From assembly GCF_025515305.1 (NCBI RefSeq), contig NZ_JAOPHT010000023.1, forward strand, positions 1-51,568: DNA of 51,568 nt. The letters are read 5' to 3'. The position numbers and the translations under genes are program-made. Numbering within the stretch: the stretch's first letter is position 1; every line of letters begins with the position of its first letter. Below, in pieces: positions 7,399 through 51,568 of the stretch. The notes beneath the pieces are model-generated. The model saw nothing but the letters and a program-made list of their open reading frames with translations. It was not told the origin of the DNA and searched no databases. This stretch comes from Roseicyclus sediminis (GTDB lineage Bacteria; Pseudomonadota; Alphaproteobacteria; Rhodobacterales; Rhodobacteraceae).

Positions 7399-7558
7399 GG
7401 CAATCTCCTGTTCGCACGGGGATAGCTAGGCCGGATGCCGCACCGCAGAATGGGCCGGAATGTCGCAGGATGCCCCGGCCTGCGGCAATGTCACCTAATT
7501 GCGCAGCGCTTGTGCGGAGCGATAGAAAATTGCGCAGTCGAAGGAAGGGAGTGCCGAG

Positions 7559-9448
7559 ATGGGATACGCCGCGATCTACGAGGCCGCGAAGGCCGATCCC
7601 GATGCGTTCTGGATGGGCGCCGCGGAAGGCATCGACTGGGTGAAGCCACCTTCCCGCGCGCTCTTCGCGGAGAACGCGCCGCTCTACGAGTGGTTCGCCG
7701 ACGGCATGCTCAACGGGTGCTGGAACGCGGTCGACCGGCATGTGGAAGCGGGCCATGGCGGACGCGTTGCGATCATCCACGACAGTCCGCTGACGGGCAC
7801 GACCCACAAGATCACCTATGCCGAGCTGCGCGACCGCGTGGCGAGCCTTGCCGGCGCGCTCAAGGCCAAGGGCGTGGAGAAGGGCGACCGCGTCATCATC
7901 TACATGCCGATGGTCCCCGAGGCGCTGGAGGCGATGCTGGCCTGCGCGCGCCTGGGCGCGATCCACTCGGTCGTCTTCGGCGGGTTCGCCGCGAACGAGC
8001 TTGCCGTGCGCATCGACGATTGCCGGCCCAAATGCATCATCGCCGCCTCTTGCGGGATCGAGCCGGGCCGCGTGGTCCATTACAAGCCGCTTCTCGACGG
8101 GGCGCTCGAGATCGCCGAGCACTCGCCGGAATTCTGCGTGATCTTCCAGCGGGAGCAGGAAGTGGCGCAACTGGAGGACGGGCGCGACGTCGACTGGCAC
8201 GCCTTCCAGTACGGCGTGAAACCGGCCGACTGCGTTCCGGTGGAGGGAAACCACCCCGCTTACATCCTCTATACCTCGGGCACGACGGGTCAGCCCAAGG
8301 GCGTCGTGCGCCACACCGGCGGCCACCTCGTCGCGCTCAACTGGTCGATGCGGAACCTCTACGACATGAACCCCGGCGAGGTGTTCTGGGCCGCCTCGGA
8401 CGTCGGCTGGGTCGTGGGGCATTCCTACATCTGCTACGCGCCGCTGACCTTCGGCTGCACGACCATCGTGTTCGAGGGCAAGCCGGTGGGAACGCCCGAC
8501 GCCGGCACCTTCTGGCGCGTGATCAGCGACCACGGGGTCAAGTGCCTGTTCACCGCGCCGACCGCCTTCCGTGCGATCAAGCGGGACGACCCGGGCGGGG
8601 CGCTGGTGGGGGATTATGACCTCTCCTGTCTCGAGACGCTGTTTCTCGCGGGCGAGCGTGCCGACCCCGATACGATCGAATGGGCGCAGAACCAGCTCGG
8701 AGTGCCGGTGATCGACCACTGGTGGCAGACCGAGACCGGTTGGGCGATCGCGGGCAACCCGCTCGGGATCGAGAAGCTGCCGGTCAAGATCGGCTCGCCC
8801 TCCGTTGCGATGCCCGGCTACGACGTGCAGATCCTCGACGAGGGCGGGCACCCGATGAAGCCGGGCGAGCTTGGCGCCATCGCGGTGAAACTGCCCCTGC
8901 CGCCCGGAACGCTGCCGACGCTCTGGGAAGCCGAGGACCGGTTCCGGAAGTCCTACCTCAGCCATTTTCCCGGCTACTACGAGACGGGCGATGCGGGCAT
9001 GATCGACGAGGATGGATACCTCTACATCATGGCGCGCACCGACGACGTCATCAACGTCGCCGGCCATCGTCTGTCCACCGGTGGCATGGAGGAGGTGCTG
9101 GCCTCCCACAGGGACGTCGCGGAATGCGCCGTGATCGGTGTCTCCGACCCCCTGAAGGGTCAGTTGCCCATGGGGTTCCTCTGTCTCAACAAGGGCGCCG
9201 AGACGCCCCCGGAGCAGGTGGTCGCGGAATGCGTGAAGCTCGTCCGCGACAGGATCGGCCCGGTTGCGGCCTTCAAGCTCGCCGTCGTGGTGGACCGCCT
9301 GCCCAAGACGCGCTCGGGCAAGATCCTGCGTGGCACCATGGTCAAGATCGCCGATGGCGAGGACTTCAAGATGCCCGCCACCATCGACGACCCCGCCATT
9401 CTCGACGAGATCGCCACCGCGGTGCGCACGCTGGGCTACGGACGCTGA
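7559..9448 (+). CDS. prpE: Propionyl-CoA synthetase
   Basis: This AMP-forming acyl-CoA synthetase activates propionate (and probably acetate less well) to the CoA ester through an acyl-adenylate. At 629 residues it has PrpE length. The ATP-binding P-loop is YTSGTTGQPKGVV near 240-252, the adenylate-binding WWQTETG motif is near 390, and the C-terminal catalytic lysine lies in KTRSGKILRG near 583-592. The ATG at 7559 follows a purine-rich GAAGGAAGGGA site. The methylcitrate genes prpBCD are not nearby, so propionyl-CoA may go to the methylmalonyl-CoA route instead. Acetyl-CoA synthetase is the alternative; the overall pattern fits PrpE better. Confidence 0.88.
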   Translation: MGYAAIYEAAKADPDAFWMGAAEGIDWVKPPSRALFAENAPLYEWFADGMLNGCWNAVDRHVEAGHGGRVAIIHDSPLTGTTHKITYAELRDRVASLAGALKAKGVEKGDRVIIYMPMVPEALEAMLACARLGAIHSVVFGGFAANELAVRIDDCRPKCIIAASCGIEPGRVVHYKPLLDGALEIAEHSPEFCVIFQREQEVAQLEDGRDVDWHAFQYGVKPADCVPVEGNHPAYILYTSGTTGQPKGVVRHTGGHLVALNWSMRNLYDMNPGEVFWAASDVGWVVGHSYICYAPLTFGCTTIVFEGKPVGTPDAGTFWRVISDHGVKCLFTAPTAFRAIKRDDPGGALVGDYDLSCLETLFLAGERADPDTIEWAQNQLGVPVIDHWWQTETGWAIAGNPLGIEKLPVKIGSPSVAMPGYDVQILDEGGHPMKPGELGAIAVKLPLPPGTLPTLWEAEDRFRKSYLSHFPGYYETGDAGMIDEDGYLYIMARTDDVINVAGHRLSTGGMEEVLASHRDVAECAVIGVSDPLKGQLPMGFLCLNKGAETPPEQVVAECVKLVRDRIGPVAAFKLAVVVDRLPKTRSGKILRGTMVKIADGEDFKMPATIDDPAILDEIATAVRTLGYGR

Positions 9449-37871: not shown

Positions 37872-38600
37872 ATGACGATGAGGGACACACTTTTCCGGAC
37901 GGTGGCTGTGATCGCACTTGCCCTTCCGCTCGCGTCCGGCTTCACGCCCGTTCCCGGCTTCGACACTGACGCGGCTCACGCCGAGCGTGGCGGCAACGGG
38001 AATGGCAACGGGGGCAACGGGAATGGCAACGGGGGCAACGGGAACGGAAACGGCAACGGCGGCAGCGCAAACGGGAACGGCGGCAACGGCAATGGAAACG
38101 GCAACGGCAACGGGCATGCCGGGGGCAACGGCCATGGCGCGATAGCCAGCGAGCTGCGCAACGCAAATGCCGCGAATGCCAACATCAACGCGATGCTGAA
38201 CGCCGCACCCGACAGCAATGTCGGCCAGCTCAACACCCTGCGTGAACGGATGTCCGAGACGGCCGAGGCCTACGAGGCCTGGCAGGACGCCTACCGCGAC
38301 TACGTCGAATTCCGCGACGCATTCGACGGGCGCACCGCCGGGGAGATCGAAGCCGAGATCGCCGAGCTGGACGAGGAACCCGAGACCTACGAAGCCGACC
38401 TCGAGCGTCTTGAGGGCGAGCTTGCCGCGCTTGCCGGCTACGAGGAGGAACTCGGCCGCCTCGCGGGTCTTTCGAACGACGCGGCCGGGATCTACGAGGA
38501 GGCAGAAGGGCTCGAGGGGGACGCGCTTGCCGTCGTCACACGCGGCCGGGATCTCTCCGACGAGGCGCTGGCCGAGTTGCGCCGCCGCCTCGTGAACTGA
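37872..38600 (+). CDS. Exported protein with Gly-Asn repeats
   Basis: The 242-residue precursor has a signal peptide (about 1-37, ending AHA). A Gly/Asn-rich repeat of GNGNGN type spans about 40-90. It is followed by a helical domain, about 90-242, with an Asn/Ala-rich start (NANAANANINAMLNAAP) and acidic, coiled-coil-like helices. Related GN-repeat exported proteins are frequent in roseobacters, with no known activity. The ATG at 37872 has AGGAGGAG upstream. A surface or matrix role is inferred from the composition. Confidence 0.82.
   Translation: MTMRDTLFRTVAVIALALPLASGFTPVPGFDTDAAHAERGGNGNGNGGNGNGNGGNGNGNGNGGSANGNGGNGNGNGNGNGHAGGNGHGAIASELRNANAANANINAMLNAAPDSNVGQLNTLRERMSETAEAYEAWQDAYRDYVEFRDAFDGRTAGEIEAEIAELDEEPETYEADLERLEGELAALAGYEEELGRLAGLSNDAAGIYEEAEGLEGDALAVVTRGRDLSDEALAELRRRLVN
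37992..38138. repeat. Coding minisatellite, 21-bp unit
   Basis: A 21-bp unit (GGCAACGGGAATGGCAACGGG) occurs twice without change at 37992-38012 and 38013-38033, followed by diverged GGCAAC-type copies to about 38138. It encodes the Gly-Asn repeat of the exported protein. Unit number is likely to vary between strains. Confidence 0.75.
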
Positions 38601-38806: not shown

Positions 38807-39886
38807 TCAGGCGCCGCCCGATGCGTCGAGCAGCCCGGCCACCAGCAGGTCCGCCCCAGACGGCCCCAGCGCCAGAGGCGTGTCGTGAAGCACCGTCAGC
38901 CGCGTCAGCGCCTGGAGGTCGACGTCGCCCGAATGCGGCACGGTCGGATCGGCGAAGAACACCACCGCATCGAGTTCCCCGGTCGCGATCAAGGCGGCCA
39001 GCTGCTGGTCGCCGCCGCGCCCGCCGCGCTGAAGCCGGTGCACCAGAAGGCCGGGCGCGGTCTCGGCGATGACCCGTCCCGTCCCGCCCGTGCAGATCAG
39101 ACGGTGACCCTTCAGTTGCGCCTCATGGCGCAGGACCCAGGCGCGCAGATGCGCCTTGCGGGTGTCGTGGGCCACGAGCGCGATGCGCCGGGGTGCCGTC
39201 GATTGCGCGCGCGCCTTCGCCGTGATGGCGAGGATGGCGCGCACCTGGCCCGCGAAGCCTTCGGTCTCGGACGGGAAGACCCCGGCCAGAGCCGCCGTGC
39301 CCACCGTGAAGCCCTGCGCGCCCGCCCGCGCGACCGCCTCGACACGCTCGGCGCTGTCGATGCTGCCCGCCACGATCACGGGCTTGGCCACCGCGGCGCA
39401 GACCGAGGCCATCAGGGCCGGCACGTCGCCGTCAAAACGGTAGGCAAGAAGGTCGAGCCCGTGGACATGTTCGAGTGCGGCCAACGACTTCGCAGAGGCC
39501 GCGATTTCCTCCGCCGGCCCCTCCAGCACGCTGGGATGTCCCGTGATCCGCCCCGGGAATGGGTAGTAGCGCAGCGGGTGGTGGCGGGTGATCGCGGTCA
39601 CCGCTCCGGCACGCGTGCCCCCCAGAAGCACGTCCACATCGAGATCGACCGCGGCGCGCGCCGAGGCCATCTCGCTCTCCTCGTCGAGACTGACCACCTC
39701 CAGATAGGAGCGCCCGCCGGCGGCCCGGATCGCATCGGCCAGACCGCGAAGTTCGGCGAGCGGCAGGCCCACGTCCTTGAACCCGATATGCCGGACGCCG
39801 CCCTCCAGCGCCTCCTCCAGCCGGGCGCGGGCATCCGGGATCGTCCGGTCGTTCTCCGTCAGCATCAGGATGAAATCGAAACCCAT
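38807..39886 (-). CDS. TIM-barrel / methylglyoxal synthase fusion protein
   Basis: The 359-residue protein has two parts. Residues 1-220 read as a phosphate-binding (beta/alpha)8 barrel: strands such as HIGFKDVG and SYLEVVSLDE, and the late glycine-rich loops IVAGSIDS (171-178) and GFTVGTAAL (192-200), which bind phosphate in HisA-like barrels. Residues about 233-350 are a complete methylglyoxal synthase, converting dihydroxyacetone phosphate to methylglyoxal and phosphate. They include VAHD at 238-241, TGGTG at 266-270, GGDQQ with catalytic Asp293, and Asp313, His318 and Asp321. Free MgsA is usually about 150 residues. The start follows GAGGTGAG. It lies 8 bp after the pyridoxal kinase gene. 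The barrel reaction is unknown. Confidence 0.85.
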   Translation of the reverse strand: MGFDFILMLTENDRTIPDARARLEEALEGGVRHIGFKDVGLPLAELRGLADAIRAAGGRSYLEVVSLDEESEMASARAAVDLDVDVLLGGTRAGAVTAITRHHPLRYYPFPGRITGHPSVLEGPAEEIAASAKSLAALEHVHGLDLLAYRFDGDVPALMASVCAAVAKPVIVAGSIDSAERVEAVARAGAQGFTVGTAALAGVFPSETEGFAGQVRAILAITAKARAQSTAPRRIALVAHDTRKAHLRAWVLRHEAQLKGHRLICTGGTGRVIAETAPGLLVHRLQRGGRGGDQQLAALIATGELDAVVFFADPTVPHSGDVDLQALTRLTVLHDTPLALGPSGADLLVAGLLDASGGA

Positions 39887-39894
39887 GGCTCACC

Positions 39895-40731
39895 TCACCG
39901 CCATTGCGGGGCCGGGGTCAATGGTTCGGATGGGACGGGGGCGCCCGTCTTCCAGCGCTCCGCGCCCTCGGCGATGCGCAGATGCGGGGCGCCGAGGCTT
40001 TCCGTCACCAGCGCCGCAAGCTGTCCCAGCGCCGTGCCGGGTGGCAGGCCGGCCGCGATCAGTGCGGCGAACACGTCTCCGGACCCGTTCGGAACGAGGG
40101 CCGGGTCGGCGCGGGCGGTCCTGTATACCGCGGCCCCCTCGGCTGCGACCCAGAGAAGCCCCGTCGCGTCCGGAAGGGGCGGCGAGGTCACCAGAACCTC
40201 GGCCCCGCCCGTCCTGTCCCGCAGCCGATCCGCGGCGATCACGGCCTCGTCCAGCGTCGCGACCCGCTGCCCGGTCAGCCAGCCGAGTTCATAGGCGTTC
40301 GGGGTCAGCACATCGGCCAATGGCACCAGCCGGTCGCGCAGGACCGCCGCGGCCTCCGCGTCGATGTAGAGGCCCTTGGGCGTGTCGCCGAGCACGGGAT
40401 CCACCACGACCCGCAGGCCCGGAGATATTGCCCGCATACGCCGGGCGAGGTCGGCCGCGAATTCCGCGTGGGCGGGGGAGGGCAGGTAGCCCGTCAGGAG
40501 CGTGCCGGCCGCCCCGAGCCAGCCGTTCGCCTCCAGCGCATCTGCCATGGCGGCGAGTTCCTCGACCGCGACGCGCCGCCCCGCGACATGCGGCCAGCCC
40601 GGATGGTTCGACAAGATCACCGTGGGAAGCTGCGTCACCTCCCGCCCCAGCGCCTGCAGCACCGGAACGGCTGCCGAGAGGCCCACGTGACCATGGGCGA
40701 CCCAGCTCGACAGGATCAGGACGGGGGCCAT
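39895..40731 (-). CDS. pdxY: Pyridoxal kinase
   Basis: The 278-residue ribokinase-fold protein phosphorylates pyridoxal to PLP. Family marks are the start VLILSSWVAHGHVGLSAAVP near 4-23 (SxVxxGHVG), SNHPG, VVDPVLGDTPKGLYI, LTPNAYELGWLTG and the anion-hole motif NGSGDVFAALI near 233-243 with the catalytic Asp. Pyridoxamine or hydroxymethylpyrimidine kinase is less likely, given the GHVG motif. The ATG at 40731 has a GGAG site. It is the first gene of a two-gene unit with the methylglyoxal synthase fusion. Confidence 0.9.
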   Translation of the reverse strand: MAPVLILSSWVAHGHVGLSAAVPVLQALGREVTQLPTVILSNHPGWPHVAGRRVAVEELAAMADALEANGWLGAAGTLLTGYLPSPAHAEFAADLARRMRAISPGLRVVVDPVLGDTPKGLYIDAEAAAVLRDRLVPLADVLTPNAYELGWLTGQRVATLDEAVIAADRLRDRTGGAEVLVTSPPLPDATGLLWVAAEGAAVYRTARADPALVPNGSGDVFAALIAAGLPPGTALGQLAALVTESLGAPHLRIAEGAERWKTGAPVPSEPLTPAPQWR

Positions 40732-40970
40732 GGCGCGGTCTCCGGGGGGTGGCGTCGCGGTGCAGACTATGCGGGGTCGCGCGCCGCTCCAAGGCTCGCG
40801 TTCCCCTTGACCCGTTAAGGGGCTCGGCAGGTCGCTGGCTCGCGCCGGTGCGTGACGTAGAAGATTTTCCGGTGATTGGGGCCCCACGTTCATCCGCATG
40901 GCCGTGGCGTCGGCACTGTCGGACAACCCCGGGCCGTGGGCGGGGCAGGGCGGTCACCTAGCCTTCGCGC

Positions 40971-41394: not shown

Positions 41395-42282
41395 ATGAGC
41401 CGAGATGTCATCATCACATGCGCCGTCACCGGCGGAGGCGACACCGCATCCAGAAGCGTGCATGTGCCGGTGACGCCCGAAGAGATCGCGCGCAGTGCCC
41501 TGGCTGCCTTCGAGGCCGGGGCCGCCATCGTCCATCTGCATGTGCGCGACCCGAAGACCGGTCTCGGCAGTCGCGACATCGACCTGTATCGCGAGCTGGT
41601 TTCGCACATCCGGGCTCGGAACGGAGACGTGATCCTCAATCTCACGGGGGGCATGGGTGGCGAGATCCTGTTCGGTCCTCAGGATGCGCCTCTGCCGCCC
41701 GGAGAAGGCACGGACTTCGTCGGGCCGGCCGAGCGGATGGCGCATATCCTCGAGCTTCGGCCCGAACTGGCAAGCCTGGACACAGGATCGCTGAACTTCG
41801 ACGAAGCGCTCTATGCCACGACGCCTTCGTGGCTTCGCGCCATGGCCTCCGCCTACCGTGATGCCCGCGTGATGCCGGAACTCGAGGTTTTTGAGCTTGG
41901 TCACATAGAGCTTGCCAAGCAGCTGATCGCCGAGGGGCACATTGCCCAGCCGGCCCTCTTCCAGTTGTGTCTGGGCATCCGCTTCGGCGCACCTGCAACA
42001 CCCGAAGCGATGATCGCCATGCGAAACGCGCTGCCTGCCGGTGCGAACTGGGCGGCTTTCGGGCTCGGCGTCCAGCAGATGCCGATGGCGGCTCAGGCAG
42101 TTCTTCTCGGCGGGCACGTGCGGGTCGGCCTCGAGGACAACCTGTACCTAGAGCGGGGCGTTCTCGCCACGAACGAACAACTGGTCGCCAAGGCGCGCAC
42201 CTTGATCGAGGGCCTCGGCGCCCGCGTCGCTTCGCCGGAGCGCGCTCGCGAGATCCTCCGACTTCCGGACTTCGGCAGGTGA
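41395..42282 (+). CDS. BKACE (beta-keto acid cleavage enzyme), 3-dehydrocarnitine-cleaving type likely
   Basis: BKACE enzymes (former DUF849) combine a beta-keto acid with acetyl-CoA to give acetoacetate and a new CoA ester. The 295-residue TIM barrel has the zinc ligands His47 and His49 in VHLHVRDP and Glu247 in GLEDN. The order of motifs (CAVTGGGDT, VHVPVTPEEIA, GTDFVGPAERMAH, LFQLCLGIRFGAP, LLGGHVRVGLEDN) closely resembles Pseudomonas CdhC, which cleaves 3-dehydrocarnitine to betainyl-CoA and acetoacetate. Substrate is inferred from similarity and from the carnitine-dehydrogenase-like gene downstream. The ATG at 41395 lacks a strong ribosome site. Confidence 0.85.
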   Translation: MSRDVIITCAVTGGGDTASRSVHVPVTPEEIARSALAAFEAGAAIVHLHVRDPKTGLGSRDIDLYRELVSHIRARNGDVILNLTGGMGGEILFGPQDAPLPPGEGTDFVGPAERMAHILELRPELASLDTGSLNFDEALYATTPSWLRAMASAYRDARVMPELEVFELGHIELAKQLIAEGHIAQPALFQLCLGIRFGAPATPEAMIAMRNALPAGANWAAFGLGVQQMPMAAQAVLLGGHVRVGLEDNLYLERGVLATNEQLVAKARTLIEGLGARVASPERAREILRLPDFGR

Positions 42283-42357
42283 CGGCATGACGATCAGCGT
42301 CACCACTATCCGACCGGGATCAGTCGCCGAGGGACCGTTGAACTGCCCACGGCCGCG

Positions 42358-43170
42358 GTGCGTGCCGTGACCTCTCCGCGTGCTACGTCCCCGCTTGCCA
42401 CGTCTCCGCTTGACGCTCCGGTACTGGCAGCCCGCGGGATAACCAAGTCATACGACCGCATCGAGGTGCTGCATGGCATCGACCTGTGGGCGGGTCGCGG
42501 CGATGTCGTGACGCTGATCGGCGCGTCGGGCTCGGGCAAGAGCACGTTCATCCGCTGCCTGAATTTCCTGGAGCAGCCCGACGCGGGGGAAGTGATCGCG
42601 GGCGGCGAAGTGTTTCCGGCGACCGCTGGCCGATCGCGGCGTCGTGCGGACCGAATGCGGATCGACCGTCTGCGGACCCGGGTTGGCATGGTCTTCCAGA
42701 GTTTCAACCTCTGGCCGCACCGGACCGCGCTGGCCAATGTCGCGGAGGGGCCGATGCTGGTCCTGGGGTTGTCCAGGACCGAGGCGACCGACCGCGCTCG
42801 ACACTACCTCGGGAAGGTCGGACTGGCGGATCGGACGGATCACTACCCCTCGCAGCTATCGGGCGGCCAGCAGCAGCGCGTGGCGATTGCCAGGGCGCTC
42901 GCAATGGACCCCGAAGCGATCCTTTTCGACGAGCCGACGTCGGCCCTGGATCCCGAACTCGTGGGCGAGGTTCTGAGCGTCATCGCCGATCTCGCCTCGG
43001 AGGGGCGGACGATGGTCATCGTCACCCACGAGATGTCGTTTGCCCGGGACGTCTCGACCCAGACGCTCTTTCTGGCGCGGGGAACGATCATCGAACGCGG
43101 TCCGCCCGCGATCATGGACTCGCCCACGACACCGGAGCTGCAGAACTTTCTCTCCCGCTTTTCCCGCTAA
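42358..43170 (+). CDS. ABC transporter ATPase, polar amino acid type
   Basis: The 270-residue ATPase powers the importer encoded by the next three genes. It has the Walker A GASGSGKST near 59-67, the Q-loop in VFQSFNLWPH, the signature LSGGQQQRVAIARAL, and the Walker B ILFDEPTSALDP. It matches the GlnQ/HisP-type subfamily. The start is uncertain: the GTGs at 42358 and 42367 are the only candidates, with no good ribosome site. The first 18 residues are a TSPxA repeat not seen in relatives. The gap to the BKACE stop is 75 bp. Confidence 0.88.
   Translation: MRAVTSPRATSPLATSPLDAPVLAARGITKSYDRIEVLHGIDLWAGRGDVVTLIGASGSGKSTFIRCLNFLEQPDAGEVIAGGEVFPATAGRSRRRADRMRIDRLRTRVGMVFQSFNLWPHRTALANVAEGPMLVLGLSRTEATDRARHYLGKVGLADRTDHYPSQLSGGQQQRVAIARALAMDPEAILFDEPTSALDPELVGEVLSVIADLASEGRTMVIVTHEMSFARDVSTQTLFLARGTIIERGPPAIMDSPTTPELQNFLSRFSR
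42370..42414. repeat. Three 15-bp tandem repeats in the ATPase 5' end
   Basis: Three imperfect 15-bp copies (42370-42384, 42385-42399, 42400-42414, the latter two ACGTCYCCGCTTGMC) encode TSPRA-TSPLA-TSPLD ahead of the conserved ATPase domain. They may have arisen by slippage; the true start could be inside or near them. Confidence 0.6.
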
Positions 43171-43191
43171 CCTCAACCTAGGAGCAATGCC

Positions 43192-43962
43192 ATGTCCCTC
43201 AATCGATCCTTCCTGACCCTGACTGTCGCCTTGGGAACGCTGGCCGCGCCTGTGGCAGCCCAGGAATCGATCCTCATCGGGATCGACGCCGCCTACCGTC
43301 CCTTCGCCTATGTCGAGCCGAGCGGTGCGTTGACCGGCTTCGAGGTGGAACTCGCCGAAGCCGTTTGCGCGGCGATCGAAGCCCGGTGCGAGATCAGCAA
43401 CGTTCCGTGGGACGGCATCTTCACGGCGCTCGATTCCGGCGCCATCGACATGGTGGGAACCACGGTCACAAAGACCGCCGCCCGCATGGAAGCCTACGAT
43501 ACGAGCGTCACGATCTACAACGTCGGCTACGGGTTCATCGTACCGGAAGGAACCGACGTCTCGGGCGGCATGGAGGCGATAGAGGGTCAGGCCATCGGCA
43601 CGATCGTCGGGACCGAAGCCTACTACGCCTTCATTCGCGGCATGCTTGGCGAAGAGGCGGACATCCGGGGCTATGACACGATCGATGCGGCCGTTCTCGA
43701 TCTCGATGCGGGTCGCATCGGAGCCGTCATGAGCGACAACTTCCAGCTCCAGGACCAGTTCGTGAGCACGGGCGACTACGTCTTCGTCGCCGAGCCCGTT
43801 TTCGATCCGCAGTGGACGGGCGACGGCCGCGGCTGGATCTTCCGCCAGGGCTCGGCAGAACTCGTTGCGCGCATGGATGCGGGCCTGGAGCAGGTCATCG
43901 GCGACGGCACGATGGACGAGATCGCGATGAGATACTTCGGCATGGCGCTTAGCTCCGAATGA
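43192..43962 (+). CDS. Substrate-binding protein, family 3 (polar amino acid type)
   Basis: The 256-residue precursor has a signal peptide (about 1-23, cleavage after VAA). The mature part is the type II periplasmic binding fold: ILIGIDAAYRPFAYVEPSG at the start of lobe 1, TGFEVELAEAVC, WDGIFTALDSGAIDM, and the hinge region near residue 110. Such proteins bind amino acids, opines or related small zwitterions. The ATG at 43192 has AGGAG upstream. It lies 21 bp after the ATPase gene and 7 bp before the first permease. Confidence 0.92.
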   Translation: MSLNRSFLTLTVALGTLAAPVAAQESILIGIDAAYRPFAYVEPSGALTGFEVELAEAVCAAIEARCEISNVPWDGIFTALDSGAIDMVGTTVTKTAARMEAYDTSVTIYNVGYGFIVPEGTDVSGGMEAIEGQAIGTIVGTEAYYAFIRGMLGEEADIRGYDTIDAAVLDLDAGRIGAVMSDNFQLQDQFVSTGDYVFVAEPVFDPQWTGDGRGWIFRQGSAELVARMDAGLEQVIGDGTMDEIAMRYFGMALSSE

Positions 43963-43969
43963 CCCTGTA

Positions 43970-44659
43970 ATGCTTGAGGTCGCCGCGCCCTACTTCGCAT
44001 TCTGGTCGCTCGGCGCGGCGTTCACGCTAGGGCTGTCGGTCGCGGTATTCCCCGCGGCCGTCCTTCTGGGACTGGCTTCGGCTCTGGCCTTCCACTCGGG
44101 CCGAGCCGCAGCCGGTGCTGCAAGCATCTATTTCGCCATTTTCCGCGGGCTGCCGGAGATACTGGTCATTCTGGCGGCGTTTCATGGTGTCAATATCCTT
44201 CTGCGGACCGTTGGCACGGGCGCAGGGGTCGCCCTGCCGACGATCGACCCATTTCTCGCTGCCTGGCTCGCCCTCGCGGTGCAATTCGGGGCCTATGCCG
44301 GGGTCATCATGTCTGACTGGCTGCGGATCCAGCCGGCCGGGCTTTCCGAGGCTGGCGCAGCGGTCGGCATGACCAGAAGCCAAATCCGGCGGCGTATCGT
44401 GATCCCGCTCGTCCTGCGCGGCGCGACCGCTTCCCTGGGGAACCTTTTCCTCGTGCTTCTGAAGGTATCGGCTCTTGCGTCGCTCATCGGTGTCGAGGAA
44501 TTGAGCCGCCGCACGGCCATCGTCTCCGGGGCCATCCGCGATCCGCTTCTGGCCTATTCGATCGCGGCAGTGCTGTACCTGATGATATCTGCCTTGGCCG
44601 AGATCGGGCAGAACCTGCTCGAACGGCGCTCGCATCGGCGCGGGGGGGCGGGCGCATGA
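43970..44659 (+). CDS. ABC transporter permease, HisM/HisQ type, first
   Basis: The 229-residue protein has about five membrane helices and the inner-membrane permease loop, EAGAAVGMTRSQIRRRIVIPLVLR near 124-147, that docks the ATPase. The N-terminal IYFAIFRGLPEILVIL is typical of polar amino acid permeases. It overlaps the second permease as ATGA, so the two form a heterodimeric channel. The ATG at 43970 follows the binding protein by 7 bp. Confidence 0.9.
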   Translation: MLEVAAPYFAFWSLGAAFTLGLSVAVFPAAVLLGLASALAFHSGRAAAGAASIYFAIFRGLPEILVILAAFHGVNILLRTVGTGAGVALPTIDPFLAAWLALAVQFGAYAGVIMSDWLRIQPAGLSEAGAAVGMTRSQIRRRIVIPLVLRGATASLGNLFLVLLKVSALASLIGVEELSRRTAIVSGAIRDPLLAYSIAAVLYLMISALAEIGQNLLERRSHRRGGAGA

Positions 44660-45354
44660 GCGGAGTGCTGGCATCCCCGGCCTTCTGGTCGGCCATCTGG
44701 CAAGGCGCGCTGGTCACGGTTTCCCTGACGCTGCTCAGCATGGCGGCGGGGGTGGTCCTTGGGGCGGCTTTGGCGGCGATGCGGCTGAAAGGCGGCCCGC
44801 TGGGACGCACATTGGCCTGGTCGTACGTCTTCGTCTTCCGCGGCGTGCCTGTCTTGATCCTGCTGTTCCTGTTCTACTACGGCCTGCCCAGGGTGCCCGC
44901 CCTTAGGGGCACGTGGTTCTGGGACCTCGTGCTCGTGTCCCCTTACAGGACGGCACTATTCGTCCTGACGATCAACAATGCCGCCTATATCGCCGAAATC
45001 TTCCGCGGTGGGTTCGTCGCAATTCCACGCGGGATGATCGAGGCGGGACGCGCGGTCGGAATGACGCCAAGGCAGGTTTTCGCACGGATCGAGATGCCGC
45101 TCGCCCTGAGAGGTTCCCTCGGCAGCCTCGGCAACGAGACGGTGGCGGTGATGAAGGCGTCGGCGATCACCAGTGTCATCACAGTGAACGACCTGATGGG
45201 GGGCGCGCGGCGCGTGGGGGACATTTGGCTCGAACCGCTGACGCCTCTCTTGGTCGTCGGGTTCGTCTACCTGCTCATGGTCATGGGCATCGACTACGCG
45301 GTCGCGCGATTGCGTGCCTTGCCGCTGATGGGCGGCGGCATGGCGCAACGCTAG
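44656..45354 (+). CDS. ABC transporter permease, HisM/HisQ type, second
   Basis: The 232-residue protein is the partner permease: FRGVPVLILLFLFYYGLP near 56-73, the helix NNAAYIAEIFRGG near 107-119, and the coupling loop EAGRAVGMTPRQVFARIEMPLA. It has about five membrane helices. It overlaps the first permease gene by four bases and ends 4 bp inside the end of the LysR gene on the other strand. No further subunit is expected, so the importer is complete. Confidence 0.9.
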   Translation: MSGVLASPAFWSAIWQGALVTVSLTLLSMAAGVVLGAALAAMRLKGGPLGRTLAWSYVFVFRGVPVLILLFLFYYGLPRVPALRGTWFWDLVLVSPYRTALFVLTINNAAYIAEIFRGGFVAIPRGMIEAGRAVGMTPRQVFARIEMPLALRGSLGSLGNETVAVMKASAITSVITVNDLMGGARRVGDIWLEPLTPLLVVGFVYLLMVMGIDYAVARLRALPLMGGGMAQR

Positions 45355-46253
45355 CTGGAAGAGACGCCCAACCTCATGGTGCCCGGAAGAGACTGCAGCC
45401 ACTGCACGAAAAGCATGGCGCCGCGAGGCACGGCGCGGTTTCTCGGGGTCAGCACGAGATAGTGAAGGTCCGTCTGAATCGAGATATCGGAGATCGGCAC
45501 AAGCGTCCCGCTGCGCAGCTGCGGCTTGATGATGGCCCTGCGTAGAAGGCCGACCCCTTCGCCCGCGATCGTGGCCGCCAGCGTCAGGTTTCCGTCGGGC
45601 AAGAGAGGCCCTCCCTCGGCAAGCTTCCGATCAAGACCGGCGCACGCCAGCCATTCCCCCCAGTATTCCCGATCGTCGTCGTGCAGCAGATGAACCCGGT
45701 CGAAGTCCGCGAGCCCCGTGTAGCCGATTTCGGTCAGGTAGCCGGGTGCCGCAACCGGGATCGCCGTTCCCTCTAGCAATGGCATGGCGACGAATTCGGG
45801 GTAATCGCCAGGTCTTCCGAAACGGATCGCCACGTCGGTGCTGTTCTCGTCGCACTCCGTCGTGCTTCGGGAATAGTGAAGCGCCACGCGCACGTCCGGG
45901 TGTCGGGCCCAGAAGTCGTGCATCTGCGTCATGAGCCAGGAAACGGCGAACATGGGAAGCGAAGAAACCCGTACGGCCGAGTCCTGGCTCTGGCGGCGCA
46001 ACATGTCGGTTTCGTTGTGCAGCAAGCGGAAAGCCTCGCATACGCTTCGCTTGTAGCGTTCGCCCTCCGCCGTGAGGATAATTCCCCTTCCATGGCGCTC
46101 GACGAGCGGGAAACCCATCCAGTCCTCGAGTTTCGCCACCTGGTGGCTGACGGCGGAATTGGTGACGCAAAGTTCGTCTGCGGCGGCTGTCACGCTGCCG
46201 AGACGGGCTACGGCCTCGAAGGCGCGCATGGAGTGCAGGGGCGGCAGCTTCAT
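45351..46253 (-). CDS. LysR-family regulator, GcvA-like
   Basis: The 300-residue protein has an N-terminal winged helix at about 5-65 (LGSVTAAADELCVTNSAVSHQVAKLE) and the periplasmic-binding-like effector domain at about 90-295. N-terminal LPPLHSMRAFEAVARLGS and the AIRFGRPGDYP stretch place it in the GcvA-like subgroup. It is divergent from the acyl-CoA dehydrogenase pair and converges with the transporter genes, so it probably controls the whole cluster, with a pathway compound as effector. The ATG at 46253 fits the family start. Confidence 0.9.
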   Translation of the reverse strand: MKLPPLHSMRAFEAVARLGSVTAAADELCVTNSAVSHQVAKLEDWMGFPLVERHGRGIILTAEGERYKRSVCEAFRLLHNETDMLRRQSQDSAVRVSSLPMFAVSWLMTQMHDFWARHPDVRVALHYSRSTTECDENSTDVAIRFGRPGDYPEFVAMPLLEGTAIPVAAPGYLTEIGYTGLADFDRVHLLHDDDREYWGEWLACAGLDRKLAEGGPLLPDGNLTLAATIAGEGVGLLRRAIIKPQLRSGTLVPISDISIQTDLHYLVLTPRNRAVPRGAMLFVQWLQSLPGTMRLGVSSS

Positions 46254-46352
46254 TCGCTCATGTGTATGCGATTCAACAGTCGGGCGTAAATATGCAAACC
46301 CTCACGGCGGGATCGCGACTAAGGTTTCGCAGGAACGATCTTGCGGAGTTGC
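46254..46352. promoter_or_regulatory. Divergent regulatory region between lysR and the acyl-CoA dehydrogenase gene
   Basis: This 99-bp gap is AT-rich in its left half (46260-46300), with GATTCA at 46274-46279. LysR regulators normally bind in such gaps and control both directions. No clear dyad or -35/-10 pair can be fixed by eye. Confidence 0.4.
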
Positions 46353-47558
46353 ATGGTGGTCGATCTCGACGCCCCTCTGAAAACAGATGACCTTGTGGCT
46401 TTCCGGGCCCGCGTCCGAGCCTTCATCGACGGAGCCCTGCCAGATCATGTCCGCGCCCAGGGCGCGGCCGAGCGGATGGATCTCGGCAAGGAAGACCAGC
46501 GCGCCTGGCACAAGGCGCTGCGCGGCGCGGGTCTTGCCTGTGCAAGCTGGCCGCCAGAACACGGCGGCCCGGGCCTCGGTCACGCCGAGCGTTTCGTTCT
46601 CGAGCGCGAGCTTGCGCTGGCCGGCGCGCCACGGCCGATGATTTACGGCGTTACAATGCTGGGTCCGGCCCTGATCGCTCACGGGAAACGCGAACAGCAG
46701 GAGCGGTTCCTGCCTCCGATCCTCGAAGGCGACGCCTTCTGGTGCCAGGGCTTTTCCGAGACCGAGGCAGGGTCGGACCTTGCCAGCCTGCGATGCGCCG
46801 CGCGCCTCATCGGCGACGAATACGTGATCGACGGTCACAAGATCTGGACGTCCGAAGCGCATATCGCGGACTGGATGTTCGGCCTGTTCCGCACGGACTC
46901 CACCGGCCGGAAGCAGCAGGGCATCACCTTCCTCCTCATCGACATGAAGAGCCCCGGCATCACGGTTCGGCCGATCGAGGGCTTCGATGGAACCGGCGTT
47001 GAAATGAACCAGGTCTTCTTCGACGCTGTCCGCGTGCCGGCGGGGCAGCGGATCGGCGCGGAGGGCGATGGCTGGACCATCGCCAAGGAACTTCTCGCGG
47101 CCGAACGCTTCGGCAACGCCGAGGTGTCGCGCTCGATCGCTTCGCTGAAGCGGCTGAAGGCCTTCTGCAAGCGGGAGCGTCGGGGCGGCCGACGCCTCAT
47201 CGAGGATCCCGTCGTGGCGCGTCGACTGGCGTCGCTCGAGGTGGCCCTGCGTGCGGTGGAGCGCACGGAGTTGCGCTTTCTCTTGCACGGCGGGACCGAA
47301 CTCGGCGCGGAAGCCGCGTTGCTCAAGCTGCGCGGCACCGAGATACAGAACCGCATCCTGGCGATGGCCGCCGACGTCCTCGGCCCGCAGATCATTTTCG
47401 ATTGCGGCTCACTTGATGCACCGGACATGCCGGTCGAGGGGCCGGAGGAACTGCGCCACGCGCTGCGAATGCACTTCAACTATCGCAAGACGATGATCTA
47501 CGGCGGCTCGAACGAGATCCAGCGCAACATTCTGGCGAAGGCGGTGTTGGGGCTATGA
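46353..47558 (+). CDS. Acyl-CoA dehydrogenase subunit, alpha-type
   Basis: The 401-residue protein has the acyl-CoA dehydrogenase order: an N-terminal helical domain, the middle strand domain with CQGFSETEAGSDLASL near 131-146 and KIWTSEAHIADW near 163-174, and a C-terminal helical domain ending IYGGSNEIQRNILAKAV. The catalytic Glu of the YEG motif is Gly384 here; Glu251 in LLAAERFG may serve, as in isovaleryl-type enzymes. The pattern resembles alpha subunits of two-subunit dehydrogenases. The ATG at 46353 has GGAG upstream; the TTG at 46341 is an alternative. It overlaps the next gene as ATGA. Confidence 0.9.
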   Translation: MVVDLDAPLKTDDLVAFRARVRAFIDGALPDHVRAQGAAERMDLGKEDQRAWHKALRGAGLACASWPPEHGGPGLGHAERFVLERELALAGAPRPMIYGVTMLGPALIAHGKREQQERFLPPILEGDAFWCQGFSETEAGSDLASLRCAARLIGDEYVIDGHKIWTSEAHIADWMFGLFRTDSTGRKQQGITFLLIDMKSPGITVRPIEGFDGTGVEMNQVFFDAVRVPAGQRIGAEGDGWTIAKELLAAERFGNAEVSRSIASLKRLKAFCKRERRGGRRLIEDPVVARRLASLEVALRAVERTELRFLLHGGTELGAEAALLKLRGTEIQNRILAMAADVLGPQIIFDCGSLDAPDMPVEGPEELRHALRMHFNYRKTMIYGGSNEIQRNILAKAVLGL

Positions 47559-48673
47559 TCCGTTCCGTCGCACTGGACGAAACCGCTGAAAGTCTTCGTG
47601 ACGCCGTGCACAGGCGCCTTGCGCCGGAGTTTGCGCCCCCGAGCAGCGCACCTGTCGATCCGATGCCCGCCTGGGCCGCCCTTGCCGAACTGGGTGCGTT
47701 GTCCATCTGTCTTCGCGAGGAGGCGGGCGGGCTCGGGACCGGGGTGGCGGCGGCGGCGCTGGTGCTGGAGCCGGTCGGCCGGCTCGGCATCGCGGTGCCC
47801 TGTCTCGACGGTCTCTGTGGCGCGGCGGCGCTCGCCGAGGCATTTCCAGCGCACGACGCCCTGCTTTCGGCGCTGTCGGATGCGGCCGGCGGCGGCGCGC
47901 CTGTCCCTCTGGCGTGGACCGAGCCGTGCAGGGGTTGGGAACGGGTTCCGGAAACGACGATTGCCGAACCGATGCCGGGTGGCGAGTATCGTCTGAGCGG
48001 CCGCAAGGTCGCCGTCCGCTGGGCGGACCGTTCGGACGCAATCGTCGTTTCCGCGGCCTGCATGGGAGCAACGGGCCTTTTCCTTGTTCCAACCGATGCG
48101 CCGGGGGTGAGGCGCGCACCCTGCGCGACCGCTGACGGCCAGTCCGCCGCAGATCTGGATTTCGACGGCGTCGTCCTCGCGTCATCCGCCAGGCTGGACG
48201 AGGGCGCTGGCCAATCCGCCCTCGAATTCGCACTCGACGCACTTGCGGCTCTGTCCCTGGCGGAAGCGGTGGGTGCGATGACGTCGTGCCTGGAGCTGAC
48301 GCTCGAACACCTCCGCAACCGGACGCAGTTCGGAGCGCAACTGTCCTCGTTCCAGGCTTTGCAGCATCGGCTCGTGGAGGCCTATGCCGACTGTGAAACG
48401 GCGTGGTCGATGACACTCGATGCACTGGATGCGCTGCGCGCCGACGTCGACGAGATCACCCGCGCCATGCGCGTATCGGCGGCAAAGGCCCACGTGGGGC
48501 CGCGTGCGAGACATGTCGCGCAGGAGGCCCTGCAGCTCCACGGCGCCACGGGAATGACCCTGGACTACCCGCTCGGGCGCCGAGTGGCCCGCCTGACCTT
48601 GATCGACCTCGGCTACGGCGACTCCGACTGGCACCTCGATCGCCTCTTGAGGCTTGGCGAGGATCTGACATGA
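47555..48673 (+). CDS. Acyl-CoA dehydrogenase subunit, beta-type
   Basis: The 372-residue protein is a divergent member: the N-terminal domain is short and Ala-rich, but the C-terminal domain keeps the FAD-binding RTQFGAQLSSFQALQHRLVE near 250-269 and LQLHGATGMTLDYPLGR. There is no YEG motif, so it probably lacks a catalytic base of its own. Overlap with the upstream gene suggests an alpha2beta2 enzyme of the kind known for side-chain dehydrogenation of CoA esters. Its stop overlaps the ligase start as ATGA. Confidence 0.85.
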   Translation: MIRSVALDETAESLRDAVHRRLAPEFAPPSSAPVDPMPAWAALAELGALSICLREEAGGLGTGVAAAALVLEPVGRLGIAVPCLDGLCGAAALAEAFPAHDALLSALSDAAGGGAPVPLAWTEPCRGWERVPETTIAEPMPGGEYRLSGRKVAVRWADRSDAIVVSAACMGATGLFLVPTDAPGVRRAPCATADGQSAADLDFDGVVLASSARLDEGAGQSALEFALDALAALSLAEAVGAMTSCLELTLEHLRNRTQFGAQLSSFQALQHRLVEAYADCETAWSMTLDALDALRADVDEITRAMRVSAAKAHVGPRARHVAQEALQLHGATGMTLDYPLGRRVARLTLIDLGYGDSDWHLDRLLRLGEDLT

Positions 48674-50769
48674 GCGGGTGCAATTCGGTCGTTCCGAACA
48701 TTCGCGCCCTGCTCGAGCCTCGATCGATTGCGGTGTTCGGCGCAAGCGGCAGAAGCGGCCGGCCCGGGCACGACGTGATCGCGGCCTTGGACACCTTCGG
48801 CGCATCGCCCGACGTGTACCCGGTGACGCCGCGTTACGAGACGATCCTCGGGCGCGCCTGTCTCAGCGCGCCGAAGGACCTTCCTTCGGGTATCGACCTT
48901 GCGGTCATCGCATCGGGCAGTGCCCGCATCATTTCCGATGCCGAAGCGGCGATCGCTGCCGGTGTGGGCGCCCTGCACGTTCTCGGCGACCTTGGTCCGG
49001 ATGATTGCGACCGTCTTGGAGCCATGGCGCGAGCCGCTGGCATCCCGCTACTCGGCCCGAATTCCGTCGGGTACGTGAATTATGCGGGGCGACAGCTCTC
49101 GACCTGGATCGCGCCCCCGGACGGCCACCGTGAAGCCGGATCGATCGCGCTGATCGTGCAATCGGGAGCCCTGTTCAGCTACGCGAACTCTGTCGATCCG
49201 CGCCTACGGTTCAGCCTCACCCTGCAGCCGGGCCGCGAGGCGGGCCTCACGCTTGCGGACGCCATGGATCATGCGCTCGACATGCCACAGACGGCTGTGC
49301 TGGGCCTGTATCTCGAGACGGTCTCCGCGCCGGAGCGGTTCGTCGCGATGCTTGCGCGAGCGGACGCGGCAGGCGTGCCCGTCGTCGTTCTGGCACCCGG
49401 TCGAAGTCCTGCGGCGGCGGAGGCCATCGCCACACATGCACGCCGTCTCGCGGGCACCGGCGCAGGTCTGGAAGCCGCGTTCCGCCGCTTTGGCGTGACG
49501 CAGGTTTCCACGCTCGATGCGTTCTGGACCACGCTGCACCTCTTCTCGGCGATACCGGTCCCAGGCCCCGGGGGCCTTGCGATCCTGACCGATTCAGGCG
49601 CGCAGCGCGCGATGACCATCGATATCTGTGCCCAGCTGGGCGTCCCTCTCGCGCGCTTCGCGGAGCCGACCAGAGCTCGCCTGCGCGGGGTTCTCGACAG
49701 TGAACTGTCTGTGGACAACCCTCTCGATATCTGGGGCGGCGAAAAGGATCTAGCGGCACATACCGCGACATGCCTCGAAACGGCCGTTTCAGACCCTGGA
49801 ACCGCCATGGCGGTTATCGTCACGGAATTCGGCGTGCCCGACAGCGATACCTTCCCGACACGGATGGCCGAGGGCGCGTCTCGGGTTGCGGGCACGGCGG
49901 GCAAACCCGTCGTCGCCGCCAGTTTCTCGACGCGCCACTTCGCCTCCGGCCGCATGCGCGAAATGGAGGCGCGGGGGCTGCCCGTGCTCGACGGGCTCGA
50001 AACCTCGTTGCTGGCAATACGGGACCTCTTCGCCCGTCGCGACAGGACGCACTTTCCGGCTTCGGAGCCGCTTGGCAGCCCCCTCGGCGTGGCGCTCGCG
50101 GAGCGTGTCGCAGACCTTTCCCCCGCCGACGAGGCCGGAGCCCTCGCTCTTCTTTCGGCCGTCGGCATCCCGGTCGTTCCGCACCGCGTGGTCGAGAGCG
50201 CCGATGCGGCCCAGTCCGCGGCGCGGGAACTCGGTGGAAGGGTGGTGCTCAAGACGGCGGCACCGCTTCTGCACAAGACCGAGGTGGGGGGCGTCCATCT
50301 TGACCTTGGCTCCCCCGGAGACATCGCGGCCGCGTGGGATGATCTGGCCAACCGCCTCGGGCCACGGGTCCTCGTGGCGCGGATGGAGCGGACCGGGCAT
50401 GACCTCGCGCTCGGGGCCATTGTCGATCCGCAGTTCGGCCCGCTCGTGATGGTGGGCGCAGGCGGTATCGAGGCGGAGCTGCTGGCCGACAGGCGGTTCG
50501 CTCTGGCGCCCGTAAGCGAGACGGAGGCACTGTCCATGATCGCCGGACTGGCCATCGCGCCACGCCTGTCCGCGTTTCGGGGCGGGCCCGCAGCAGATGT
50601 GGCGTCGGCCGCCCGGGCGGTCGTCGCCCTGTCGCGGCTGATAGCGGCCTGTTCGGCCCGGATCTCGGAGATCGACATCAATCCGCTTCGCGTCGGACTC
50701 GGCGGCGTCGTCGCGCTCGATGCCGTCATCATCAAGACCCAAGAGAACGACGAGGATCCTTCCCAGTGA
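48670..50769 (+). CDS. NDP-forming acyl-CoA ligase (ADP-forming acetyl-CoA synthetase family)
   Basis: The 699-residue protein joins the alpha and beta parts of the ADP-forming acetyl-CoA synthetase family. It has a CoA-binding domain with IAVFGASGRSGRPG near 20-33, two succinyl-CoA-ligase-like domains, and a C-terminal ATP-grasp domain, about 490-699, with GGRVVLKTAAPLLHKTEVGGV. The phospho-acceptor His appears to be His256 in ATHARRLAGT, where SHTGALAG is usual. It should make a CoA ester of a carboxylic acid using ATP (ADP and phosphate released). The acid is inferred to be the imported substrate. The ATG at 48670 overlaps the upstream stop. Confidence 0.88.
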   Translation: MSGCNSVVPNIRALLEPRSIAVFGASGRSGRPGHDVIAALDTFGASPDVYPVTPRYETILGRACLSAPKDLPSGIDLAVIASGSARIISDAEAAIAAGVGALHVLGDLGPDDCDRLGAMARAAGIPLLGPNSVGYVNYAGRQLSTWIAPPDGHREAGSIALIVQSGALFSYANSVDPRLRFSLTLQPGREAGLTLADAMDHALDMPQTAVLGLYLETVSAPERFVAMLARADAAGVPVVVLAPGRSPAAAEAIATHARRLAGTGAGLEAAFRRFGVTQVSTLDAFWTTLHLFSAIPVPGPGGLAILTDSGAQRAMTIDICAQLGVPLARFAEPTRARLRGVLDSELSVDNPLDIWGGEKDLAAHTATCLETAVSDPGTAMAVIVTEFGVPDSDTFPTRMAEGASRVAGTAGKPVVAASFSTRHFASGRMREMEARGLPVLDGLETSLLAIRDLFARRDRTHFPASEPLGSPLGVALAERVADLSPADEAGALALLSAVGIPVVPHRVVESADAAQSAARELGGRVVLKTAAPLLHKTEVGGVHLDLGSPGDIAAAWDDLANRLGPRVLVARMERTGHDLALGAIVDPQFGPLVMVGAGGIEAELLADRRFALAPVSETEALSMIAGLAIAPRLSAFRGGPAADVASAARAVVALSRLIAACSARISEIDINPLRVGLGGVVALDAVIIKTQENDEDPSQ

Positions 50770-51568
50770 CGTCTTTACCTGCCCAACTTCCCGGCCGCGT
50801 CGCCTGCATAGGTGGCGGTCTGATAGGCGCCGGCTGGGCGCTGCATTTCATGCGCGCCGGATGCGATGTCGTCGTCCACGATCCCGAGCCCGCGCGCGCC
50901 GAATACCTGTCTCAGGTTCTGCGGATGGCCCTGCCGACCCTTCACGCGATGGGCATGGCCGACGGTGCCGATCCGGACCGGATATCGTTTGACGCAAGGA
51001 TCGAGACCGCGCTGGAGGGAGCAGATTTCATTCAGGAAAGCGCGACCGAAGACCGGCAGGAAAAGAGCGCCCTCATGGGCCGGATCGACAGGCTTGTGCC
51101 GCCCGGTGTCGTGATCGCGTCGAGTTCGTCCGGATTTCTCGCAACGGATCTTCGAAAGGACGCGAGGAACCCTGAACGCATCGTCATAGGACATCCGTTC
51201 AATCCGCCCTGGCTCGTGCCGCTGGTCGAGGTTGCAGGCGGGGATACCGCACCGGAGGCGGCCGCGCGGGCTGCCGCCGCTTACCGCGCGTCGGGCTGCG
51301 AGGTGATCGAGCTGTCGCGCGAGATAGACGGCTACATCGGTAACCGCCTTCAGTTCGCGGTCTTTCGAGAGATCCTTTACCTGTGGTCGCAGGGTGTCGC
51401 CGATCTCGAGGCCATCGACCGTGCCATGTCCGCGGGACCTGCGCTGCGATGGGCCGTGATGGGGCCATCGGCGGTGTTCTACATGGGCGCGCGCGACCCT
51501 GCGCTCTTCGGGGAGTTCGTCACACTTCTCCACGAGGAGCTTCAGGCAGGCTACACCGCCCCCCCCCC
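50766..51568 (+). CDS. 3-hydroxyacyl-CoA dehydrogenase family protein, carnitine-dehydrogenase-like (3' end cut)
   Basis: The start is a GTG at 50766 overlapping the ligase stop. The visible 267 residues hold the NAD-binding Rossmann motif GGGLIGAGW near 17-25, SSSSGFLATDL near 119-129, HPFNPPWLVPLVEV near 142-155 with the catalytic His, and EIDGYIGNRL followed by a helical domain with LRWAVMGPS. This combination resembles L-carnitine 3-dehydrogenase (carnitine to 3-dehydrocarnitine) and lambda-crystallin/gulonate dehydrogenase rather than FadB. No stop is reached; a fused C-terminal thioesterase, as in some carnitine dehydrogenases, may follow. The frame ends in a C homopolymer at the window edge. 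Confidence 0.85.
   Translation, partial: MTSLPAQLPGRVACIGGGLIGAGWALHFMRAGCDVVVHDPEPARAEYLSQVLRMALPTLHAMGMADGADPDRISFDARIETALEGADFIQESATEDRQEKSALMGRIDRLVPPGVVIASSSSGFLATDLRKDARNPERIVIGHPFNPPWLVPLVEVAGGDTAPEAAARAAAAYRASGCEVIELSREIDGYIGNRLQFAVFREILYLWSQGVADLEAIDRAMSAGPALRWAVMGPSAVFYMGARDPALFGEFVTLLHEELQAGYTAPP

Follow-up and report, generated by a model that had tools for sequence, protein, structure and literature searches.

Within a stretch of 51,568 nucleotides from Roseicyclus sediminis (contig NZ_JAOPHT010000023.1) we find ten open genes that run from position 41395 to the contig end. The window, by which we mean this whole stretch of DNA, is all of contig C15 in a genome of 37 contigs. The genes include a β-keto acid cleavage enzyme (BKACE), a 3-hydroxy acid dehydrogenase and an ABC importer, and on balance we favor the reading, drawn from sequence, that they repeat the bacterial carnitine pathway in a diverged form, which would serve an analogue of carnitine that differs in its tail. 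A preliminary description had named the gene families, and the profile matches agree with it for all ten genes.

The genes lie in two operons with a regulator on the opposite strand between them. The first (41395-45354, + strand) is headed by the BKACE gene (41395-42282), whose product belongs to PF05853 (323 bits against a cut-off of 24.8) and has 3c6c as its top Foldseek match, with 50% identity. After 75 bases comes the reading frame for the ATPase (42358-43170) of an importer of the polar amino acid (PAAT) type, with best NCBIfam matches to TcyN, HisP and GlnQ that are below cut-off, followed by genes for a periplasmic binding protein (43192-43962; SBP_bac_3, PF00497) and two permeases (43970-44659 and 44656-45354; both PF00528) that overlap by ATGA. 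The LysR-type regulator (45351-46253, - strand; PF00126 and PF03466) is GcvA-like, with 242 bits against the NF008352 cut-off of 288, and probably controls both operons. The second operon (+ strand) runs from 46341 to the contig end. It encodes the large (ACDH1, 46341-47558, with a possible alternative ATG start at 46353) and small (ACDH2, 47555-48673) subunits of an acyl-CoA dehydrogenase, both with Acyl-CoA_dh domains and with scores below the cut-offs of pimC_large (325 against 624 bits) and pimD_small (163 against 653 bits), an NDP-forming acyl-CoA ligase with its α and β domains in a single chain (48670-50769), and the carnitine-dehydrogenase-like dehydrogenase of the 3HCDH type (50766-51568; PF02737 and PF00725), which is cut by the contig end. 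From ACDH1 onward, each of the three gene junctions up to the dehydrogenase is a four-base overlap (ATGA, ATGA and GTGA). The overlaps noted in the preliminary description are thus present there and between the permeases, but the BKACE lies outside the overlapping run, in the separate operon.

Contig C15 stops within the dehydrogenase gene at a run of C. An end of contig C9 opens with a run of C that is followed in frame by 56 C-terminal dehydrogenase residues, the length expected from Rhizobium Q54. The two contig ends have no common overlap of 9 or more bases, and we infer the junction from frame, homology and gene order. The next gene on C9, 173 bases from the contig end, encodes a hydratase that is 77% identical to the Rhizobium Q54 cluster hydratase used as query; its first possible ATG overlaps the dehydrogenase stop, so that ATGA could be shared as at other junctions. 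Its best NCBIfam match is the crotonobetainyl-CoA hydratase CaiD (NF002936), with 261 bits against a cut-off of 500, which is likewise missed by hydratases from two ordinary carnitine clusters of Rhizobiaceae (312 and 315 bits). Genes for hydration and hydrolysis had been placed tentatively beyond the window. The first is found on C9, but with the L031 query no separate thioesterase was found in the genome, the sole match being a domain fused to a carnitine dehydrogenase on contig C22. A DUF1989 gene lies 33 bases past the hydratase (L116 11374-12240), with integrase-like genes, named by eye, after it. In genome G066 a DUF1989 protein 65% identical to this one is encoded roughly 5 kb away from the orthologous genes (L142 17857-18723); the available part of PMC12560246 describes the fold in a trimethylamine N-oxide demethylase.

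The cluster is rare and patchily distributed, because so few genomes carry an orthologue of the BKACE or a match to ACDH2. Among the best 80 of 140 confirmed loci, orthologous BKACEs with 73-77% identity are present at six and the others are at most 60% identical, those with a dehydrogenase nearby being 46-60% identical to that of the window. A search of 394 genomes in the family of G061 gave four BKACE matches with E values no higher than 1e-115, including a new one in G797 (72%), bringing the orthologues to seven other genomes with 72-77% identity. Among 61 genomes around the window's own, no BKACE match above 60% was found except the window copy. ACDH2 was matched at 1e-70 in one of 385 genomes of the class, again the window's own, with few candidates scored per genome.

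Importer types and most neighboring genes in the relatives' loci were named by eye from translations. In six of the seven genomes the orthologous BKACE has a LysR gene and a dehydrogenase nearby, together with an importer whose type matches that of the window, and the importer binding protein of G797 is just 32% identical to that of the window. In the seventh (L032/L141) the contig ends early; it has the BKACE with a gene for a CaiB/BaiF-family protein upstream, a short-chain dehydrogenase and a thioesterase, and no LysR, dehydrogenase or importer gene was seen on it. Several of the orthologous clusters have a 3-hydroxybutyrate dehydrogenase gene (L028 was tested), and SCOT and thiolase genes lie beside several. 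These neighbors agree with acetoacetate as a product, as the preliminary description had it. A 4HBT-type thioesterase gene is present in G061, G062, G064, G065 and G797; none was found on the 19.9 kb contig of G066, and that of G063 ends within the dehydrogenase. Two unrelated 2-hydroxy acid oxidases also occur beside the clusters, an LldD-like FMN dehydrogenase (L142 4486-5643, G066) and a GlcD-like FAD oxidase (L140 10212-11597, G064). Genes for an EctC-like (ectoine synthase-like) cupin lie near the clusters of G062, G064 and G797 (L138 6945-7331, L143 3852-4307 and L147 15330-15716), directly adjoining the thioesterase gene in G797.

The putative Zn ligands of the BKACE, H47, H49 and E247, are invariant in 36 sequences and align with the Zn ligands of BsfD, and the predicted model has a mean pLDDT of 95. 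In a tree of 112 rows, from which rows of fewer than 230 columns or with stops had been dropped, the window clade of seven rows has a support of 100/100 and lies among dehydrogenase-adjacent BKACEs, its join to the nearest clades being weak (85/85). The groups were assigned by locus first, and adjacency to a dehydrogenase within 3 kb was then tested, giving 68 BKACEs with and 36 without one. Outside the window clade residue 90 is Asp in all 68 of the former. It is Glu in 7/7 window-clade rows, and G797 has the same GGMGGE stretch; the window BKACE does not carry the CdhC-type Asp90 signature derived here. Among the 36 BKACEs that lack an adjacent dehydrogenase, at loci some of which have short flanks, residue 90 is Asp in 10, Gly in 10, Arg in seven, Pro in five, Thr in two, Lys in one and Phe in one. 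Position 90 aligns with Arg91 of BsfD, which a preprint (PMC12871164, section 8) locates close to the phosphonate once the product has flipped. An acidic residue at this position would suit a cationic or hydroxylated tail.

Two further features of the BKACE were considered and set aside. Residue 196 is Lys or Arg in the window clade and Pro in 67 of the 68 carnitine-linked sequences, and position 226 is Ala or Val in the window clade. The equivalent Arg226 of BsfD contacts CoA (PMC12871164, preprint), so this swap may be related to CoA binding and was rejected as proof of a different tail. E172 was rejected as a replacement for the tail aromatic, as in the model it is predicted to lie in the helix after strand 5. 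All BKACE sequences are said to have a Tyr (Tyr145 of Kce), from which BsfD differs by Phe166 (PMC12871164); we find Phe at position 166 in 67 of 68 dehydrogenase-linked rows and in the seven window-clade rows, with an uncertain register in distant rows. A group from Hyphomicrobiales/Xanthobacteraceae (L045, L052, L058, L059, L061 and L088) has Arg90 and no dehydrogenase found within 3 kb, with a fumarylacetoacetate hydrolase-like gene beside the BKACE in L045 and L088; its substrate is probably anionic. No list of tail-contact residues was found in the available parts of PMC12133276 and PMC11961710 on BKACE.

The dehydrogenase shows a parallel change. Glu197 and Trp200 are present in 68/68 other dehydrogenases from BKACE loci, at N+4 and N+7 from the Asn of the NR motif, which we take to be an active-site residue. 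In all seven window-clade rows both are absent, with Phe or Leu instead, and G797 is alike in this; the window enzyme does not carry the carnitine-linked Glu/Trp signature derived here. Given their spacing from the NR-motif Asn, residues 197 and 200 may touch the tail of the substrate, and their replacement would argue against a trimethylammonium group. In a quick tree of 78 rows, made after dropping duplicates and matches that were shorter than 190 residues or had stops, the window clade (eight rows, one of them a duplicate) has an SH-aLRT support of 100 and lies within a carnitine-linked clade of 42 rows.

The fragment of the dehydrogenase in the window scores 196 bits each against NF005716 (fused, cut-off 592) and NF005471 (unfused, cut-off 414). 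Complete enzymes of the window type score 216 (L028) and 209 bits (L033) against NF005471. Of four unfused controls from other BKACE loci, two pass the cut-off (L067, 634; L034, 433) and two miss it (L037, 301; L064, 303). Window-type dehydrogenases score lowest, but a score below cut-off was rejected as a sign in itself of a different substrate, since half of the controls miss too. Sinorhizobium sp. 8-89 (L029) carries the window-type dehydrogenase gene twice within 6.5 kb, at 2075-3028 and 7543-8496, with a recombinase-like gene between the copies.

A further BKACE of the carnitine type, 52-56% identical, was found in all six ortholog-bearing genomes tested (G797 was outside the test), with a dehydrogenase beside it in G061, G062, G063 and G065; none was seen in G064, where the contig ends, or in G066. 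We use the names CdhA, CdhB, CdhC, CdhR and CaiX as we take them to be applied to carnitine genes. Ordinary clusters of Rhizobiaceae, seen most clearly in G063 and G065, encode a CdhR-like regulator, a fused dehydrogenase-thioesterase, an acyl-CoA dehydrogenase, an NDP-forming ligase, a hydratase and an SBP_5-like importer. In the genome of the window, contig C22 carries CdhC and a fused carnitine dehydrogenase-thioesterase that scores 712 bits against the cut-off of 592 for carnitine 3-dehydrogenase (NF005716), as against 919 for that of G063 (L151). Elsewhere on C22 lie in a row an acyl-CoA dehydrogenase 75% identical to that of G063, a ligase 54% identical to that of G062 and a hydratase. 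From these matches the genome appears to hold the ordinary carnitine pathway besides the window cluster, which would make the latter a second, diverged copy.

An NDP-forming ligase had been regarded in the preliminary description as an oddity at this step. The window ligase has CoA_binding_2, Succ_CoA_lig and ATP-grasp_5 domains (PF13380, PF13607 and PF13549), all above their cut-offs, and is a member of that family; the sequence ATHARRLAG contains a His that is presumably the phosphohistidine. Ordinary carnitine-type clusters carry ligases that are about 24-32% identical to it, and C22 has one too, so the ligase was rejected as a mark of an unusual step.

The upper part of the pathway is not shared by all relatives. 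An ACDH1 orthologue is present in three of the seven (G061, G064 and G066), and no match at 1e-60 was found in G062, G063, G065 and G797. With G064's own hydratase as query, these three genomes alone gave hydratases that are at least 69% identical; the remaining copies are 46-53% identical. It appears that a core of importer, dehydrogenase and BKACE can stand without the module for activation and desaturation. Because four of the seven show no ACDH1 orthologue, this suggests that the shared core probably handles a free 3-hydroxy acid.

These genes suggest a route. The compound would be taken up by the PAAT-type importer and converted to its CoA ester by the NDP-forming ligase, the two-subunit acyl-CoA dehydrogenase would desaturate the ester and the CaiD-like hydratase on C9 would add water. 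We infer that CoA is then lost. From the resulting free 3-hydroxy acid the dehydrogenase would make a 3-keto acid by oxidation, and the Zn-dependent BKACE would convert this with acetyl-CoA to acetoacetate and the CoA ester of a shortened acid, from which a thioesterase would free the acid; this is a separate gene in five relatives, and here only the C22 fusion was found. Every catalytic step is predicted, as is a tail other than trimethylammonium. In its fuller form the proposal is that an entire catabolic pathway, not described before, acts on an analogue of carnitine (a 3-hydroxy acid that is differently cationic, a sulfonium compound, amino acid-like or hydroxylated). The carnitine route as a whole would have been duplicated and given a new specificity, and in several rhizobia the lower half would work alone on the 3-hydroxy acid; we hold this slightly more probable than its negation. 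No earlier description of such a second cluster was found among the titles and starts of abstracts listed in a literature search, with most subscription papers outside its coverage.

The carnitine/γ-butyrobetaine-type chemistry of the preliminary description is borne out by the same set of enzyme types in carnitine clusters. The pathway from carnitine to glycine betaine in S. meliloti and P. aeruginosa has the same order from the 3-hydroxy acid, with dehydrogenase, BKACE with acetyl-CoA, and thioesterase, and Rhizobiaceae carnitine clusters also contain an acyl-CoA dehydrogenase, an NDP ligase and a hydratase as found here. The window differs from that pathway in an unfused dehydrogenase that lacks the conserved Glu and Trp, the BKACE Glu90, a two-subunit acyl-CoA dehydrogenase, a LysR that is not CdhR-like and a PAAT importer. 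In the available part of PMC12482172, SM2011_c01638 of S. meliloti reportedly both oxidizes carnitine and converts betainyl-CoA. The BcoAB proteins of S. meliloti form γ-butyrobetainyl-CoA in a reaction dependent on ATP and CoA (PMC8364193, available part). The likeness lies in the activation with CoA; between the ligase found here and that of the Sinorhizobium sp. 8-89 carnitine cluster the identity is 31%, the sequence of BcoAB itself being outside the comparison.

The enterobacterial cai system (CaiA-CaiD) shares the logic of desaturation and hydration of CoA esters. The window hydratase resembles CaiD, and the CaiB/BaiF-family protein upstream of BKACE in one relative is a further likeness. 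The cai system interconverts crotonobetaine, carnitine and γ-butyrobetaine (PMC2131755, available part), whereas the window route would be oxidative and complete to BKACE. In the deoxyribonate pathway of Pseudomonas simiae a free 3-hydroxy acid is oxidized and cleaved by a BKACE, with acetoacetate expected (PMC6365646, available part), using a short-chain dehydrogenase/reductase and major facilitator superfamily transporters in contrast to the 3HCDH enzyme and ABC importer here. BsfD of flavophos biosynthesis has the DUF849 fold, and its alignment to the window BKACE spans residues 3-291 of the latter with two gaps of one residue each; because these are the only gaps, the window enzyme shares the long loop after strand 3. 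BsfD differs in having Arg91, for a phosphonate tail, in place of Glu90, and in the reaction that it catalyzes (PMC12871164, preprint). SAR11 islands with genes for carnitine dehydrogenase and BKACE have a composition other than that of the window cluster, from the available part of PMC12421898.

We favor a carnitine analogue over carnitine because the ordinary pathway is kept alongside and residues that are otherwise invariant have been replaced. What we observe directly are the genes, their order, their recurrence in relatives and the substitution of residues that do not otherwise vary among carnitine-linked sequences. This accords with the suggestion in the preliminary description of a related β-hydroxy acid instead of carnitine, which the BKACE paralogue, the C22 pathway and the substitutions all support. 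The sulfonium compound that it raised as a candidate is among the possible substrates. On whether the active sites group with those for other substrates the answer is divided; in the trees both enzymes are kin to carnitine-linked ones, but their residues differ at positions otherwise invariant there.

A number of points weigh against our reading. Positions 90 of the BKACE and 197 and 200 of the dehydrogenase were chosen after scanning all alignment columns, and such a scan will turn up some differences for any clade that has diverged. The change from Asp to Glu is conservative, and BsfD Arg91 is close to the phosphonate solely after the product flip. No PDB match is named as a carnitine dehydrogenase, so 197 and 200 have no structural anchor. 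Both trees place the enzymes among carnitine-linked relatives, no thioesterase gene was found in the window cluster, and the missing ACDH1 in relatives may stem from draft genomes. Two clusters have oxidase genes alongside, and these speak for a tail that is hydroxylated and neutral; such a compound would be an analogue, yet no betaine. Duplicate pathways for one compound do exist.

It is possible, though unlikely, that the cluster degrades γ-butyrobetaine and L-carnitine themselves, as a redundant or differently regulated second copy that was acquired horizontally. The grouping of both enzymes with carnitine-linked relatives is in keeping with this, as is the best match of the C9 hydratase to crotonobetainyl-CoA hydratase at 261 bits, and the rare, patchy distribution and the integrase-like genes on C9 would suit horizontal transfer. 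However, a second carnitine route would be redundant, because C22 already carries the parts of the pathway. All six relatives tested have kept a carnitine-type BKACE, and the residues replaced in the window type are invariant in 68/68 dehydrogenases and 68/68 BKACEs. The importer too is of a family unlike the SBP_5-like ones beside Rhizobiaceae carnitine clusters.

The other alternatives are specific forms of the analogue reading. In one, which we consider improbable, the tail would bear hydroxyl and no charge, as in 4-hydroxybutyrate, 4-hydroxyvalerate or a deoxy sugar acid, and BKACE would give glycolyl-, lactyl- or glyceryl-CoA, to be used onward as a 2-hydroxy acid. The gene for the LldD-like FMN dehydrogenase lies between those for the hydratase and BKACE in the G066 operon and that for the GlcD-like FAD oxidase directly after a permease gene in G064, but oxidase genes were noted at just two of eight clusters. 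The dehydrogenase helix NRLQFAVF is nearer to NRLQYAII of λ-crystallin, which we take to have L-gulonate dehydrogenase activity, than to carnitine-linked sequences such as NRLQEALW. Action of a BKACE on a hydroxylated 3-keto acid has genetic support for deoxyribonate in the available part of PMC6365646. Yet the importer looks like one for basic amino acids, and an acidic residue 90 would suit hydroxyls and cations alike.

In a second form, which we regard as very unlikely, the substrate would have an α-amino acid head group (for example a 2-amino dicarboxylate), enter the cell as an amino acid and be shortened at its other end, with release of an amino acid. The binding protein was aligned to LAO and is closest to the lysine/arginine/ornithine type, with 153 bits against the TIGR01096 cut-off of 256. 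Residues aligned with LAO Asp11, Tyr14, Arg77 and Asp161 are kept, the last two as R98 and D182, and Phe52 is replaced by Trp, in the window and five orthologues; we assume that all five are ligand contacts in LAO. Kept R98 and D182 would suit an amino acid, but the conserved Asp is weakly informative and the residues fit a compact cation too. Glu90 with Lys/Arg196 in the BKACE, in place of Asp and (in 67/68) Pro, would be in line with such a head group, although Lys/Arg196 may merely substitute for Arg226 as a CoA contact. Desaturases like pimeloyl-CoA dehydrogenase would suit dicarboxylates, but there is no known demand for such a route. Finally D-carnitine, the dehydrogenase for which is named in a legend in the available part of PMC2131755, was rejected; it too would yield 3-dehydrocarnitine, which leaves no need for a second BKACE.

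If the cluster does serve an analogue of carnitine, this bacterium and some rhizobia would use a nutrient that has gone unrecognized. Dehydrogenase residues 197 and 200 and BKACE residue 90 would then be positions from which the tail specificity of carnitine-type enzymes could be read, and annotations such as 'carnitine dehydrogenase' or '3-keto-5-aminohexanoate cleavage' in such clusters may misname the compound.

Upstream of the cluster, the window gene at 38807-39886 (- strand) encodes a fusion protein in which a barrel-like domain is followed at the C-terminus by an MGS-like one (PF02142, 32 bits), and is adjoined by a phosphomethylpyrimidine kinase-like gene at 39895-40926 (- strand). The gene at 37872-38600 (+ strand) encodes a protein with a tract of Gly-Asn repeats (GNGNGNGG...) close to its N-terminus.

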